From Bdellovibrionales bacterium (lineage in GTDB: Bacteria > Bdellovibrionota > UBA1018), in contig JAFEAP010000025.1 in NCBI GenBank assembly GCA_018266355.1, positions 1 through 64,000 of the forward strand: a stretch of DNA of 64,000 nt. The letters are read 5' to 3'. Positions 58,995-64,000 of the stretch are shown here, piece by piece (positions within the stretch are counted from its first letter, which is position 1; each line of letters begins with the position of its first letter). The position numbers were made by a program, and so were the translations under genes. The notes below the pieces were generated by a model that searched no databases, was not told the origin of the DNA, and saw only the letters and a list, made by a program, of their open reading frames with translations.

Positions 58995-59447
58995 ATGGCT
59001 GACAACCGCAGTACGTTTTCCGCGTCGCCAGGATTCGTGGGTCTATTTCTGAGAGAGAAGCGCGAGGCCGTGGGCCTAAGCCAGCGGGCCCTCGGGCAGC
59101 TCTTCGAACCTCCCGTCACGACCCAATTCATTTCGAATATCGAGCGCGGAGTGACTCCGCTCCCCCACGTGCACATCCCCACCCTCGTGCGCGCGCTCCG
59201 ACTTCAGGAAGCCGAGCTCATCATGGTGCTCGAGCGGGAGTACGCGGCGAAGATCTCGAACCGCGTCGGACGCCCCGATCTCGCATCGACGGTCCCGGGT
59301 CTGCCCGGCTTCCGGATCGCGGACGAGGACCGGGCCTACTTCCAGGCGCTTTACGATTCTTACCGGGTGTCGGATCCGAAAACGCGTGAAGCCTTCCAGT
59401 CCGTCTGCGATACTCTACTCCGGACCCCTAAACCTCACTTGAAATGA
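58995..59447 (+). CDS. XRE-family helix-turn-helix transcriptional regulator
   Basis: 150 residues. Residues 14-75 form a Cro/CI-type helix-turn-helix: VGLFLREKREAVGLSQRALG, then FISNIERGVTPLPHVHIPTL with the typical recognition helix and IERG turn. The C-terminal half (GFRIADEDRAYFQALYDSYR) is probably for dimerisation or ligand sensing. The gene overlaps the following hydrolase by 4 bp (ATGA). It likely regulates its own divergent promoter region. No repressor site was identified, though the AT-rich spacer is the obvious place. Confidence 0.87.
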   Translation: MADNRSTFSASPGFVGLFLREKREAVGLSQRALGQLFEPPVTTQFISNIERGVTPLPHVHIPTLVRALRLQEAELIMVLEREYAAKISNRVGRPDLASTVPGLPGFRIADEDRAYFQALYDSYRVSDPKTREAFQSVCDTLLRTPKPHLK

Positions 59448-60388
59448 AATCCACGGAAACTCGAAGCCGCCCGAGCGGATCCCGAAAAAAAAGCCTGCGC
59501 GACCGCCTGCGGCCCGAGACCGACGTCCCGACGAAGCACGGATACTTTCGTTCCTTCGACGGCACGAAACTCTTTTACAGCGTCGAGGGCGAAGGCAAAC
59601 CGCTCGTGTTTTGCTACGGTCTCGTCTGCTCGAGCCTCCACTGGACCTATCAGATCGAGCACTTCCGGAAAAATTACCGGACGATCTGGATGGACTACCG
59701 AGGCCACCAGAACTCCGACGTTCCCGAGGACCTCGGATCCCTGAACCTCGAATCGCTCGCGAAGGACCTGAAGCTCCTGCTCGACGAGTTGAAGGTCGCG
59801 GACGCCGTGCTCCTCGGCCACTCGATGGGCGTGAACGTCGTGCTCGAATTCGCGCGTCTCTTTCCCGAACGCGTCGCCGGAATGGTGCTCTCGAACGGCA
59901 CCGTGAACCGCCCGCTCGAGACGCTGCTGAACTCGAACGCGCTCGTCCCGGGCTTCCGCGCGCTCGAGTTCCTCCGCGATAAATCGCCGAAACTCCTGAA
60001 CAAGATTTGGACGCTCCAAAAAGGAAACCCGCTCGTTCACCGCACGATCGGAATGCTCGGGTTCAATCCCCATCTGACCGCGAAGGAAGACGTCGCGCTT
60101 TACGTCGACCAGATCGCGGATATGGATCCGCGCGTGTTCCTCTCCCTCATCCGGAATTACGACCGCTACGACGGCTCGACGTGGCTGCACACGATCAAAG
60201 CGCCGACGCGAATTCTCGCCGGCGAGGACGACTACATCATCCCGCTCGCGCAGCAAGAACTCCTGCATCAGCTGATCGCGGGTAGCGAACTCGAGATCAT
60301 CCGTCACGGCAGCCACTGCCCGCAGATGGACCTGCCCGACCTCGTGAACTCGAAGATCGAGGAGTTCCTCCGCCGAATCAGTTACTGA
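59444..60388 (+). CDS. Alpha/beta hydrolase
   Basis: 314 residues. The fold starts at GYFRSFDGTKLFYSVEGEGK. The nucleophile elbow is LLGHSMGVNV (Ser127), the acid is Asp in GEDDYIIPLA, and the His is in GSHCPQMD, giving a full catalytic triad. The oxyanion region is FCYGLVCSSLHW. A cap region (about 150-230) is rich in Asn, Leu and Phe. Substrate unknown; esterase, lactonase and haloperoxidase-like activities are all possible. It is coupled to the XRE regulator, a common arrangement for small-molecule-responsive hydrolases. Confidence 0.85.
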   Translation: MKSTETRSRPSGSRKKSLRDRLRPETDVPTKHGYFRSFDGTKLFYSVEGEGKPLVFCYGLVCSSLHWTYQIEHFRKNYRTIWMDYRGHQNSDVPEDLGSLNLESLAKDLKLLLDELKVADAVLLGHSMGVNVVLEFARLFPERVAGMVLSNGTVNRPLETLLNSNALVPGFRALEFLRDKSPKLLNKIWTLQKGNPLVHRTIGMLGFNPHLTAKEDVALYVDQIADMDPRVFLSLIRNYDRYDGSTWLHTIKAPTRILAGEDDYIIPLAQQELLHQLIAGSELEIIRHGSHCPQMDLPDLVNSKIEEFLRRISY

Positions 60389-62385
60389 AGTTTCCCCGGA
60401 TCGATCTTCCAGTCCGACCACGGAAAACGCCAGTCGAGGTGACCGCGCACTTCGTTCGGATCGAGACCGGCCCTCTCCAAACACCGCTTCGCCGGACCGA
60501 CGCAAAGCTGACCGTGGCAGCGCCCCGAACCGAGGCCCGTACTCTCGAGCGCGGCGTCGACGGAAAGGAGGTTCCCCTGCTCGACCCGCTCGAGGAACGC
60601 GCTTTCCTGGATCCCGAGACACGGGCAAAGGTCGTCGGAGGCCGCCTCGTCGCGCACGGATTTGATCGCCATGCCTTTCCGGACCATCGTCTGGCAGGCG
60701 AGTTGTTTCAAGCCGTCGACCTCGACTTCGCAAAGGCCGCAGGATCCGTCCTCGCAAAGCAATCGATCGCTCGAACGCTGGTAGCCCGTCTCGAAGAACG
60801 CGGTCGAGATCGGAATGCCGTTCCGCACGAAGCGCCGCTCGCCGTTCCAGGAGATCTCGACCCGGTCAGGGAGGAACTCGCGCGCGTTTTGGCGAAGAAA
60901 CTCGTTATCGACCGCCGACGCGTGCGCGCGCGGACGACGAACGCCCCGCGCTTCCCAGACGAGATGGGTCGGCACTTCGACTTCGACGAGGAATTCGGAA
61001 AAAAGCACGAGTCCCGCCGGCGTTTCGCTCGGCCGATCGGGCGGACGATGACCGAGCACCCGCCCGGTACCGAGCGCGTCGCCCTTCCGGTTCAGAAGCG
61101 TGAGGAAAGACCCGGCTTCGGGCGGCTCGTCGGCCTCTCGCCAGGAAAAGACGACTTTCCCCATCGAACGCCCTTCGGGCTCGTGGACCATCACCGGGGT
61201 CGCGCTCGGACAGGCCTGGACGCAAAGGCCGCACGAAATGCAGGCCGTTTCCTCGAGGATCGAGCGCGGCGGTTCGTCGCCTTTCCGCGAACGGAGCCGA
61301 TCGAGCCGAATGGCGTCGGTCGGACACGCCCGTTCGCAGAGATCGCATCCGATCGTTTCGAAACATTCGACGGAAGCGATCGGCTTCTCGAAGTGCGCGC
61401 GCTTCGGCACCCCCGAAAACGACTTCACGTTCTTCAGCACCGCGCCCGCCGTCCACTTTCCAGTGAACGCGAGTTCGAACGGCTCCTCGAGGTAACGCCC
61501 CATCCGCTTCATACGCGAGCGCGAGCGCCGAAGGATCGCCTCGATCTCGTCGCGCGACGATCCGAGTTCGGGCACGAGCGCCTTCGCGATCCGCGCCGCG
61601 AGGACCCGCGCGCGTTCTTCCTCGAGCATCCAACCTTCCGGATCGCCCGCGCGCGCCGCCGGCGCGGTCTGCTCGATCTCGAAGAGGAGGCTTCCCGGCG
61701 GATATTCCTTGAAACCCTCGGTGGGCGAAAAAGGACCGAAGCTCACGATTTTCGCGGCCTCGATCACCCGAACGCCGCGCTGATCGCGCACGCGGAACTC
61801 CCCGATCGCCGATCCGACTTTCTGGAAACTCACCGGAATCGCCTCGATGATCCGGCCGCCGAGGATCTCGAAGCGCCGCCGTTCGACTTCCCACCCCGCG
61901 TAACGTTTTCCATCCCAAGCCGCGAACGGTTCGATGACCGAAACCTCCGGACATCCCCGCTCGAGGAGCCCTCGCGCGAATCGGAGCGCGCGGTTTCCCG
62001 AGCCGAGGATCGAGACCGGCTCGTTCCAAACGAACGCGCGATCGTCGACGAGTTTGGTCGCGGTCGATCCGAGCAACAACGAGGGATGACTCGATCCCTC
62101 GAACGGACTCGGCGTTTCGTCGGGAAGCACGAAGCGTACGACGGCTCTGGCTTGGATCCGATGGGCGCGTCCCTGGGCGTCCTCGACGAGCGCGAGCCCT
62201 CCCGATCCGTCCGCGGGAAGCACGCCCTTCGCGAAAAGCCCTTCGCCGCCGACCCACCCCGCCTCGAGCCCGAATTTCGAGACGAGGGAGGAGAGTTCGC
62301 GGACGCCGACCGTCGGCCACTCGGGCAACCGAGGCCCGGCGACGATCGCGACGTCGAAACGCGTGGAGTGGAAGTTCCTGATCAC
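60382..62385 (-). CDS. Composite iron-sulfur flavoprotein (FAD/NAD domain, two 4Fe-4S, two 2Fe-2S sites)
   Basis: 667 residues from the GTG at 62385, which overlaps the upstream gene's stop (GTGA). Domains in order: a two-dinucleotide-fold region (about 8-300, with PVSILGSGNRALRFARGLLE as the NAD/FAD-binding loop); a dicluster ferredoxin region, first set Cys347, 350, 354 plus Cys341 and second set Cys382, 385, 388, 392; a plant-type 2Fe-2S domain (Cys544, 549, 552, 564 in LCEDGSCGLCEVEV and later); and a BFD-like 2Fe-2S domain (Cys587, 589, 623, 628). The pieces are those seen separately in HcnA/HcnB, GlpA or sarcosine-oxidase-like complexes. Function: electron transfer from an amine, amino acid or glycerol-type substrate (inference). 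Confidence 0.82.
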   Translation of the reverse strand: MIRNFHSTRFDVAIVAGPRLPEWPTVGVRELSSLVSKFGLEAGWVGGEGLFAKGVLPADGSGGLALVEDAQGRAHRIQARAVVRFVLPDETPSPFEGSSHPSLLLGSTATKLVDDRAFVWNEPVSILGSGNRALRFARGLLERGCPEVSVIEPFAAWDGKRYAGWEVERRRFEILGGRIIEAIPVSFQKVGSAIGEFRVRDQRGVRVIEAAKIVSFGPFSPTEGFKEYPPGSLLFEIEQTAPAARAGDPEGWMLEEERARVLAARIAKALVPELGSSRDEIEAILRRSRSRMKRMGRYLEEPFELAFTGKWTAGAVLKNVKSFSGVPKRAHFEKPIASVECFETIGCDLCERACPTDAIRLDRLRSRKGDEPPRSILEETACISCGLCVQACPSATPVMVHEPEGRSMGKVVFSWREADEPPEAGSFLTLLNRKGDALGTGRVLGHRPPDRPSETPAGLVLFSEFLVEVEVPTHLVWEARGVRRPRAHASAVDNEFLRQNAREFLPDRVEISWNGERRFVRNGIPISTAFFETGYQRSSDRLLCEDGSCGLCEVEVDGLKQLACQTMVRKGMAIKSVRDEAASDDLCPCLGIQESAFLERVEQGNLLSVDAALESTGLGSGRCHGQLCVGPAKRCLERAGLDPNEVRGHLDWRFPWSDWKIDPGKLQ

Positions 62386-63590
62386 GGCCGCACGTCCTCG
62401 ACGAAACGCGTGGCCGCGATCCGCGCCGTACGCACGACGTCGGCGACGAACCCCTCGGATCCGGTGACCACGCGGGATTCGAATTTCTCGCGGAAAAGGA
62501 TGAAACTCGGGTAATGACCTTCCCACTCGAAGGTCTGGCGGACTTTCAGCGAACGGAGCGTGAATCGCCCCCATCGGAGAACGTCGTCGCAAAGGTTCGA
62601 GATCTTCTCGAAGGAATCCCCCGAAACGACTTCGTTTTCCCAAGCGCGAAACGTTTCCGAGCGGTCGGAAATCGGATGAAGCGGACCGGGCTTCAGCACG
62701 CCGAGCCTTTTCCCGTCCGTTTCGATCGGGTCCCCTTCGCCTTCCGCCCAACAGACGAGGTCGTCGATCATTCCGATCGACGAAGGATCGACGGGGTCCT
62801 TCGAAAGCAGCGACCACTCCTCCCAAAGGCGGATCCCTTTCGGGAGGCTCGGCTTCACCTCGTGGCGCGCGGCGAGCGAGAGGATCCACGTCGTCAGCTT
62901 CGGCGTCCAGAACGTGAGCACGCCCTCGGCGACCCGGACGTTCACCGGCTTTCCCTGCTTCCGGAACCGGACGCCTTCCGTCGTGAACTCGATCGGAGCG
63001 GCGCCGACGACGAGGCGATCTTCGCCGAGCCGTTCGCGGACGAACTCGCGCACGCCGTTCCGAAAACGGACGGCGTCGACGTCGGCGAGTTTCGGTATTA
63101 CGATCCCGCGGTAGCGGTCCGGATCGACGATCTTCGCCGTCGCGACGCCCGGGAATCCCTTCAGCGCGTCCCACCCTTCGAAGGATTGGGCGCGCGCGCC
63201 CTTCTCCATCGCGTGGAGCGCGACTTCCTCGCGCCCCGCCCACGATTCGTCTTCTTTCCGGCCGACGATGAGCCGGTTCCTCACGCGGAGGAACGGCGCG
63301 AGCGGATCTCGGAATCCAGCGGGCGCGCCCGGCCAGACTTCGATTGAGCCCGGAAATTCGGGTTGGATCTCGCGGAGGACGGCGTCGCTCTCCGAATCGC
63401 GGAGCCGCATCGCGGTTTCCCGACCCGCCCACGGAAAAAACGGATCGAAGGAGAATTCCGAGTTTTCGCCGAAGAAATCGTATTCCGGATTCAGGAGGAG
63501 GACGGTTTTTCCCTGGCGCAGAAGGATCTGGGCGGCCACGAGCGGAGCGAGTCCGGTTCCGATGAGAACCATGTCGCTATCGAGACGCAT
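62382..63590 (-). CDS. FAD-dependent oxidoreductase-like protein (GlpB/HcnC-like partner)
   Basis: 402 residues. The N terminus DMVLIGTGLAPLVAAQILLRQGKTVLLLNPE is a dinucleotide-binding fold (G-x-G-x2-[AP]) for FAD, and the C-terminal region SLAARHEVKPSLPKGIRLWEEW may close the site. It is not a full D-amino-acid oxidase by sequence, and the middle part is divergent. It overlaps the composite protein by 4 bp and the preceding gene by 14 bp, so all three form one operon. It is probably the substrate-oxidising or adaptor subunit. Substrate unknown. Confidence 0.7.
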   Translation of the reverse strand: MRLDSDMVLIGTGLAPLVAAQILLRQGKTVLLLNPEYDFFGENSEFSFDPFFPWAGRETAMRLRDSESDAVLREIQPEFPGSIEVWPGAPAGFRDPLAPFLRVRNRLIVGRKEDESWAGREEVALHAMEKGARAQSFEGWDALKGFPGVATAKIVDPDRYRGIVIPKLADVDAVRFRNGVREFVRERLGEDRLVVGAAPIEFTTEGVRFRKQGKPVNVRVAEGVLTFWTPKLTTWILSLAARHEVKPSLPKGIRLWEEWSLLSKDPVDPSSIGMIDDLVCWAEGEGDPIETDGKRLGVLKPGPLHPISDRSETFRAWENEVVSGDSFEKISNLCDDVLRWGRFTLRSLKVRQTFEWEGHYPSFILFREKFESRVVTGSEGFVADVVRTARIAATRFVEDVRP

Positions 63591-64000
63591 CCGCGAGGGC
63601 TCCCATCACTCGGCGCATCGCCGTTTGTAACTGCGCCTTCTTGTACTCGCTGTGCGCGCTCCGGCCGCGCTCGTTCTGCTCGTGGTTTCGGATGTCGACG
63701 ACCTGGATCTCGTAGGGATAGAAGAAGCGCACGTCGCGCTGGATGTTCTTCAAGTCGATCTTCTCGATGAGCTTCGCGAGCTCCTCGGAAACGCCTTCGC
63801 CGTCCTTCTTCCCGATCGCTTTCAGTTCCTTCAGGTCCCCGTAAAGCGGATTGCGGAGTTTGATGAGCTGACGGCAGGTGAACTGGATCGAGCGGTAGAA
63901 TTCGCTCGTGTGGGGATTGTCCGGCGAGACGATCGGCGGACGGGCGGCTTCCTCGACGGCGAGTTCGAATTGGGTCTCGGTGTATTCGCCCGAATCGAGA
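63577..64000 (-). CDS. Conserved protein of unknown function, C-terminal part (5' end outside window)
   Basis: The reverse frame is open to the window edge; the 141 visible residues end at the TAG at 63577. The sequence is soluble and charged: EYTETQFELAVEEA, FTCRQLIKLRNPLYGDLKEL, FFYPYEIQVVDIRNHEQNE and HSEYKKAQLQTAMRRVMGAL. The PYEIQVVD...N...HSEYKKAQ pattern recalls an uncharacterised family in deltaproteobacteria (possibly TIGR04552), but I am not sure. It overlaps the FAD protein start by 14 bp. Confidence 0.65.
   Translation of the reverse strand, partial: LDSGEYTETQFELAVEEAARPPIVSPDNPHTSEFYRSIQFTCRQLIKLRNPLYGDLKELKAIGKKDGEGVSEELAKLIEKIDLKNIQRDVRFFYPYEIQVVDIRNHEQNERGRSAHSEYKKAQLQTAMRRVMGALADASR

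Follow-up and report, generated by a model that had tools for sequence, protein, structure and literature searches.

Layout of the gene pair and its products

The window, a stretch of 64,000 nucleotides from an uncultured Bdellovibrionales bacterium related to the predatory Bdellovibrio, carries two genes on the minus strand of 60382–63590, P2 followed by P1, downstream of a gene assigned to the NCBIfam family TIGR04552. The features of the locus are as follows:

63577–64000, minus strand: 3' part of the TIGR04552 gene, overlapping the start of P2 by 14 bases
62382–63590, minus strand: P2, 402 aa, ATG start, DAO fold with a GTGxAP loop and an invariant N34-P35
62382–62385, minus strand: GTGA overlap, shared by the P2 stop and the P1 start
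60382–62385, minus strand: P1, 667 aa, GTG start at 62385 and stop at 60382–60384, with orthologues of like length
62026–62385, minus strand: P1 residues 1–120, shortened first dinucleotide half, beta-alpha-beta and beta meander without GxGxxG
61741–62025, minus strand: P1 residues 121–215, second Rossmann unit with a G[ST]GNxAL loop and E152
61192–61377, minus strand: P1 residues 337–398, 2x[4Fe-4S] ferredoxin domain with 8 invariant Cys (44/44), Fer4_7 E 1.2e-9
60931–61191, minus strand: P1 residues 399–485, small beta domain with the conserved pattern NRxGexLG..RV...evP.HL.WeaR, lying after the 4Fe-4S domain and before the 2Fe-2S domains
60655–60864, minus strand: P1 residues 508–577, plant-type [2Fe-2S] domain, Pfam Fer2_4 E 9e-7, with NuoG/StnC-type matches
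60466–60639, minus strand: P1 residues 583–640, BFD-like [2Fe-2S] domain, C-x-C-x33-C-x4-C, Cys in 44/44

An ORF of 1016 aa at 60382–63432 is merely the P1 frame left open upstream, and the homologues start close to the first residue of the 667-aa version. The initial annotation had described an unusual multi-cluster flavoprotein, with a dinucleotide fold, a 2x[4Fe-4S] ferredoxin and both a plant-type and a BFD-type [2Fe-2S] domain in one polypeptide, coupled by GTGA to a second FAD-fold protein. This domain content is correct, as is the coupling to the DAO-fold protein P2 by the overlap at 62382–62385. From its N-terminus, P1 consists of a two-part dinucleotide fold, the 2x[4Fe-4S] domain, the small beta domain, the plant-type [2Fe-2S] domain and the BFD-like [2Fe-2S] domain. 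The cluster ligands of the supposed flavoprotein are in place. A flavin in P1 is uncertain, since the first nucleotide loop is missing family-wide.

Among the structural matches to the AF2 model of P1, built from a 41-sequence alignment (mean pLDDT 88.9, pTM 0.89), are thioredoxin reductases and lipoamide dehydrogenases, as well as StnC and the alpha chain of L-proline dehydrogenase (1y56_A). The front half is accordingly predicted to adopt the two-dinucleotide fold of the thioredoxin reductase and lipoamide dehydrogenase type. The dinucleotide fold proposed initially is retained in this form, but a GxGxxG in the first beta-alpha-beta is absent from every aligned homologue inspected, where AGPR..WPS.G.R or a similar motif stands instead; this motif and D.Q.R.H are the conserved motifs of residues 1–120. 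The second Rossmann unit alone has a loop (G-x-G-N-x-A); members of the main family have it as G[ST]GNxA, and the divergent family f2 has GS[ST]N.

With regard to the clusters, the ligands of the 2x[4Fe-4S] domain are C341/347/350/354 and C382/385/388/392, and Pfam places a 4Fe-4S dicluster domain at residues 345–394 (E 1.2e-9). The plant-type domain has the ligands C544-x4-C549-x2-C552-x11-C564, and Fer2_4 is present in 39 of the 41 family members searched with Pfam. In the BFD-like domain the ligands are C587-x-C589-x33-C623-x4-C628; 15 of the 41 homologues gave a Fer2_BFD match, the best at 6e-10, with no Pfam match there in the window P1 itself, and the region gave a weak profile match to the PH1363 chain 1y56_A. 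A profile search against the PDB returned no convincing relative of the beta domain: its top matches were WRAP-T proteins, with no stretch passing alone, and there was a weak match to the C-terminal domain of formate dehydrogenase (E 1.9).

The AF2 model of P2 (mean pLDDT 91.6) was matched by Foldseek to monomeric sarcosine oxidase, D-arginine dehydrogenase, NikD and SoxB (1vrq_B), with TM values of about 0.5–0.6. At the sequence level, recognition is confined to the N-terminal beta-alpha-beta, to which the likeness to DAO paralogues of the same genome is also limited in hhalign comparisons. The Pfam DAO model (PF01266) reached E<=0.1 in 14 of 42 P2 homologues, the window P2 not being one of them. 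The loop glycines G11 and G13 are kept in 45/45 sequences. The third loop glycine is mostly Pro, the loop reading GTGxA[P/S/A/T]; Asn34 replaces the usual ribose-binding acid (45/45), and FWTP stands in place of the customary DAO 'atG' strand in most members. Because of these three departures in the sequence, flavin binding by P2 is not assured. A candidate for the FMN Arg-X-Trp motif, of tentative positional equivalence, is R254-x-W256 (Arg in 27/45, Trp in 39/45). Beyond the loop, P2 contains many invariant aromatic and charged residues.

Conservation and distribution of P1 and P2

All 44 homologues share the 16 ligand Cys of P1 without exception, which bears out the four Fe-S sites in one chain that had been noted at the outset; Cys145 and Cys635, the remaining two Cys of the window P1, are not conserved. 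The 44 include three members of the divergent family f2 (L089–L091), 22–24% identical to the window P1 over a first-half alignment, and divergence within the P1 family reaches under 30% identity. The f2 P1/P2 pair (L089:3221-5236, L090:2055-4262 and L091:2850-4940) retains all 16 Cys, but its N-terminus differs and the second dinucleotide loop of P1 is gone (GSSN/GSTN). Between the window P1 and its counterpart in a congener, there are 167, 102 and 437 substitutions at codon positions 1, 2 and 3, respectively, and this predominance of third-position changes shows that P1 is under selection at the protein level.

At E<=1e-15, P1 orthologues were found in 46 of the 192 phylum genomes sampled, every one inside one uncultured Bdellovibrionota order, and none was found in the sampled genomes of the phylum outside that order. 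Within the order, P1 is near-universal in the sampled genomes and the pair is single-copy. The search beyond the phylum covered 84,980 species with two peptide patterns, which miss the divergent f2 even within the order, so that remote relatives may exist elsewhere. The named relatives come from metagenome assemblies that bear the labels Oligoflexia, Bdellovibrionales or Bacteriovoracaceae bacterium. Two further records, under the names Nitrosovibrio sp. Nv4 (L070) and Lysobacteraceae bacterium WA131c (L076), coincide by match position with G046 and G037, genomes of the same Bdellovibrionota order, so that these organism names are probably mistaken. One member of the family with a small genome of 2.0 Mb (G015, 97% complete) has TIGR04552 in two pieces and no P1, possibly through loss.

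An assembly or sequencing error that fused separate genes, which the initial annotation had raised as a concern, has a negligible probability. Nothing was found to favour it except the odd domain combination, and it is refuted by an unbroken frame across dozens of independent assemblies, with orthologues across the order, 16 invariant Cys and third-position-biased substitution.

Since the 16 Cys are invariant and the loops of P1 and P2 are altered, the clusters are conserved more strictly than the nucleotide sites of the two proteins. Such strict conservation fits an electron wire, with nucleotide binding by P1 uncertain. The same difference between invariant cluster ligands and altered P-loops, family-wide in P1 and seen as GTGxAP and N34 in P2, would suit a cofactor-poor scaffold, in which both dinucleotide folds are relics, P2 is structural or regulatory and the cluster wire of P1 alone is functional, serving an enzyme encoded elsewhere. 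However, the loop glycines of P2, kept in all 45 sequences, and its many other invariant residues go beyond what a scaffold needs, and we regard this reading as improbable.

Relation to multi-subunit amino-acid dehydrogenases

In the heteromeric DAO-type dehydrogenases, a DAO beta subunit oxidises the amino or imino acid, and an alpha subunit (dinucleotide fold, C-x-C...C-x4-C) and a gamma subunit (C-X4-C-X2-C-X11~12-C) pass the electrons onward; OpnDH contains FAD, FMN and [2Fe-2S] (PMC4575208). The opine dehydrogenase OdhABC / D-hydroxyproline dehydrogenase (D-HypDH; alpha4beta4gamma4) and HcnABC resemble the pair described here in several respects. Their catalytic partner has a DAO fold, as does P2, and their alpha subunit combines a two-dinucleotide fold with a C-terminal C-x-C...C-x4-C, as does P1. 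Furthermore, the spacing of the gamma ligands recurs in C544/549/552/564 of P1 (44/44), and the genes overlap tightly, likewise in P2-P1. In contrast to these enzymes, P1 incorporates the gamma part within its alpha chain, on the C-terminal side of the dinucleotide fold, and carries an additional 2x[4Fe-4S] unit and the beta domain. Its alpha part is without GxGxxG, and the DAO part in P2 has an altered GxGxxG and acid. The spacer of the alpha motif is X33 in P1, compared with the reported X15~20, although the order of the Cys and the X4 agree. Overall sequence similarity to OdhABC, D-HypDH and HcnABC is absent, and the similarity of P1 and P2 to heteromeric DAO-type dehydrogenases is essentially restricted to the cluster domains, the best profile scores of P1 against the PDB being those of 1y56_A (E 0.095) and 2gag_A (E 0.26). 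A tblastn search of plasmids for close named relatives, meant for an alignment with OoxA/NoxA, returned none, just NuoI-type ferredoxin matches.

The archaeal dye-linked L-proline dehydrogenase shares with P1 and P2 an organisation of an alpha chain and a DAO beta chain. Its alpha chain in P. horikoshii (PH1363, 1y56_A) combines, as P1 does, a domain derived from a 2Fe-2S ferredoxin, a dinucleotide fold and a C-terminal BFD-like region. The ferredoxin-like domain of PH1363 sits at the N-terminus and no longer has its Cys (PMC1949818); it lies at the opposite end of the chain from that of P1. In addition, 1y56_A has no 2x[4Fe-4S] inside, and its cofactor set may differ from that of P1 and P2. 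Heterotetrameric sarcosine oxidase likewise pairs a dinucleotide alpha subunit (SoxA) with a DAO beta subunit (SoxB), and there is a weak profile match of P1 to 2gag_A and a fold match of P2 to 1vrq_B. Compared with SoxA, P1 is without the aminomethyltransferase half and has four clusters. P1 as SoxA itself (TIGR01372) or SO_alpha_A3 (PF17806) was rejected, the P1 locus not being among the matches of these models in its own genome. The likeness to HcnA/B-type and sarcosine-oxidase-alpha-type parts, pointed out in the initial annotation, is upheld.

StnC contains six [4Fe-4S], one [2Fe-2S], FAD and NADPH and works with the StnAB bifurcating module (PMC10482914). As in StnC and other GltD/NfnB-type chains, P1 unites a two-Rossmann fold with several Fe-S clusters in a single chain. 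However, its cluster domains and their order differ from those of StnC and its partner is a DAO subunit; of the intact FAD and NAD(P)H P-loops of the GltD/NfnB/StnC type, the first is absent throughout P1 and the second is degenerate in f2. These loops bear on a rather unlikely alternative, in which NAD(P)H, bound at the second Rossmann unit, supplies electrons that cross the clusters of P1 in the reverse direction, and a biosynthetic substrate is reduced or saturated by P2. In members of the main family the second unit still has both E152 and the G-x-G-N-x-A loop, the best fold matches of P1 are NAD(P)H-dependent reductases, and StnC, among the matches, passes NADPH electrons to clusters with a GltD-like fold (PMC10482914). 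Nevertheless, the flavin-binding first unit of P1 is without a P-loop, which makes the conversion of a hydride into single electrons unclear, and the f2 homologues lose the second loop (GSSN/GSTN) yet retain the 16 Cys.

In the searches made of Pfam, NCBIfam and the PDB, no family covered the whole P1 architecture with its DAO partner, in agreement with the view that it was unusual and not already assigned. This unusualness applies to the assembly as a whole, given that a multi-cluster GltD/TrxR-type chain has a precedent in StnC (PMC10482914): single-chain multi-cluster folds of this type and a ferredoxin-alpha fusion are already known. P1 and P2 work most like the multi-subunit opine, hydroxyproline and proline dehydrogenase class, in which they are not filed as formal members because both ADP-binding GxGxxG motifs are altered and similarity in sequence beyond the clusters is negligible. 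The pair is probably ordinary in chemistry and unusual in assembly.

Our preferred reading, to which we give a probability of about 0.5, makes P1 and P2 a two-subunit dehydrogenase of the cytoplasm that functions in the manner of HCN synthase and of the heteromeric enzymes that oxidise opines, D-hydroxyproline and, in archaea, L-proline. The gene structure, conservation, ligands, predicted folds and constant pairing are observations, and the physical complex, the flavin in P2, the direction of electron flow, the substrate class and the acceptor belong to the model. In such a dehydrogenase, P2, with its DAO fold, would bind a flavin and remove an electron pair from its substrate, an amine, imino or 2-hydroxy acid. 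P1 would correspond to an alpha subunit (two dinucleotide units and the BFD-like [2Fe-2S]) fused with a gamma subunit (the plant-type [2Fe-2S]), with the 2x[4Fe-4S] ferredoxin unit and the small beta domain inserted in the fusion. It would split the electron pair and move single electrons across the four clusters towards an external one-electron acceptor, presumably a ferredoxin or a quinone-side partner. The invariant ligands, the gamma Cys spacing and the order of the alpha Cys, the folds of P1 and P2 and the adjacency of the two genes in 42/42 loci where both are seen argue for this model; the negligible similarity outside the clusters, the altered loops, the Arg of the candidate FMN motif kept in just 27/45 and the lack of a metabolic neighbour argue against it. 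The initial idea of an electron-passing dehydrogenase is supported, but not as a self-contained P1, as this protein always adjoins P2, likely the catalytic half of the pair.

The TIGR04552 neighbour and the wider locus

No metabolic gene neighbours P1-P2; the constant neighbour is RelA/SpoT-like. TIGR04552 lies directly upstream of P2-P1 in 41/41 loci where it is visible; the whole gene occupies 63577–64827 of the contig (L078:3578-4828), running beyond the window. Its product exceeds the Pfam cut-off for RelA_SpoT, and the motifs conserved among 57 homologues (KpkK.R.S...KLLHK, FDrvG.RF.T, Y..iQFT and YP.EvQ..D...G...H.eYK) resemble those of a synthetase domain, which suggests a RelA/SpoT-like protein. 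A candidate for the canonical Rel/SpoT, a 774-aa frame, is located elsewhere in the same genome. In the searchable literature, no description of TIGR04552 as RelA/SpoT-like was found, the sole mention being its listing in a table of mutated genes (PMC9888234).

This constant order, with overlapping genes in the window, could also reflect a redox- or metabolite-sensing module for TIGR04552, in which a degenerate amino-acid dehydrogenase was recruited in one order and its four Fe-S clusters couple an alarmone-type nucleotidyltransferase to redox or amino-acid status. The synthetase-type motifs of the RelA/SpoT-like neighbour and the degenerate nucleotide sites of P1 and P2 would suit such a role. 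However, adjacency is not interaction, and TIGR04552 occurs phylum-wide, in 165 of the 184 Bdellovibrionota genomes sampled, mostly without P1, and has unrelated neighbours in three class-level relatives examined beyond the order. TIGR04552 thus functions without P1-P2, its linkage with them is a trait of this order, and a sensing module seems a doubtful explanation.

On the other side of P1, genes for an HTH regulator and an alpha/beta-hydrolase (abh) lie at 58995–60388, convergent to P1. Homologues are found near P1 loci in 34/45 (abh) and 33/45 (HTH) cases, abh being directly downstream in at least 19; this neighbourhood is conserved, without a clear link to the P1-P2 pair. A phage-defence reading of the locus was dropped, as PADLOC gave no meaningful match.

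In the dehydrogenase reading, the electron wire of a multi-subunit amino-acid dehydrogenase would have been condensed into a single polypeptide that gained a 2x[4Fe-4S] unit while its nucleotide loops decayed. If the enzyme is active, this four-cluster single chain would be a compact system in which to study electron wires, and the substrate would represent a metabolic trait common to nearly the entire order. The constant RelA/SpoT-like neighbour, conserved across the phylum, offers a testable link.
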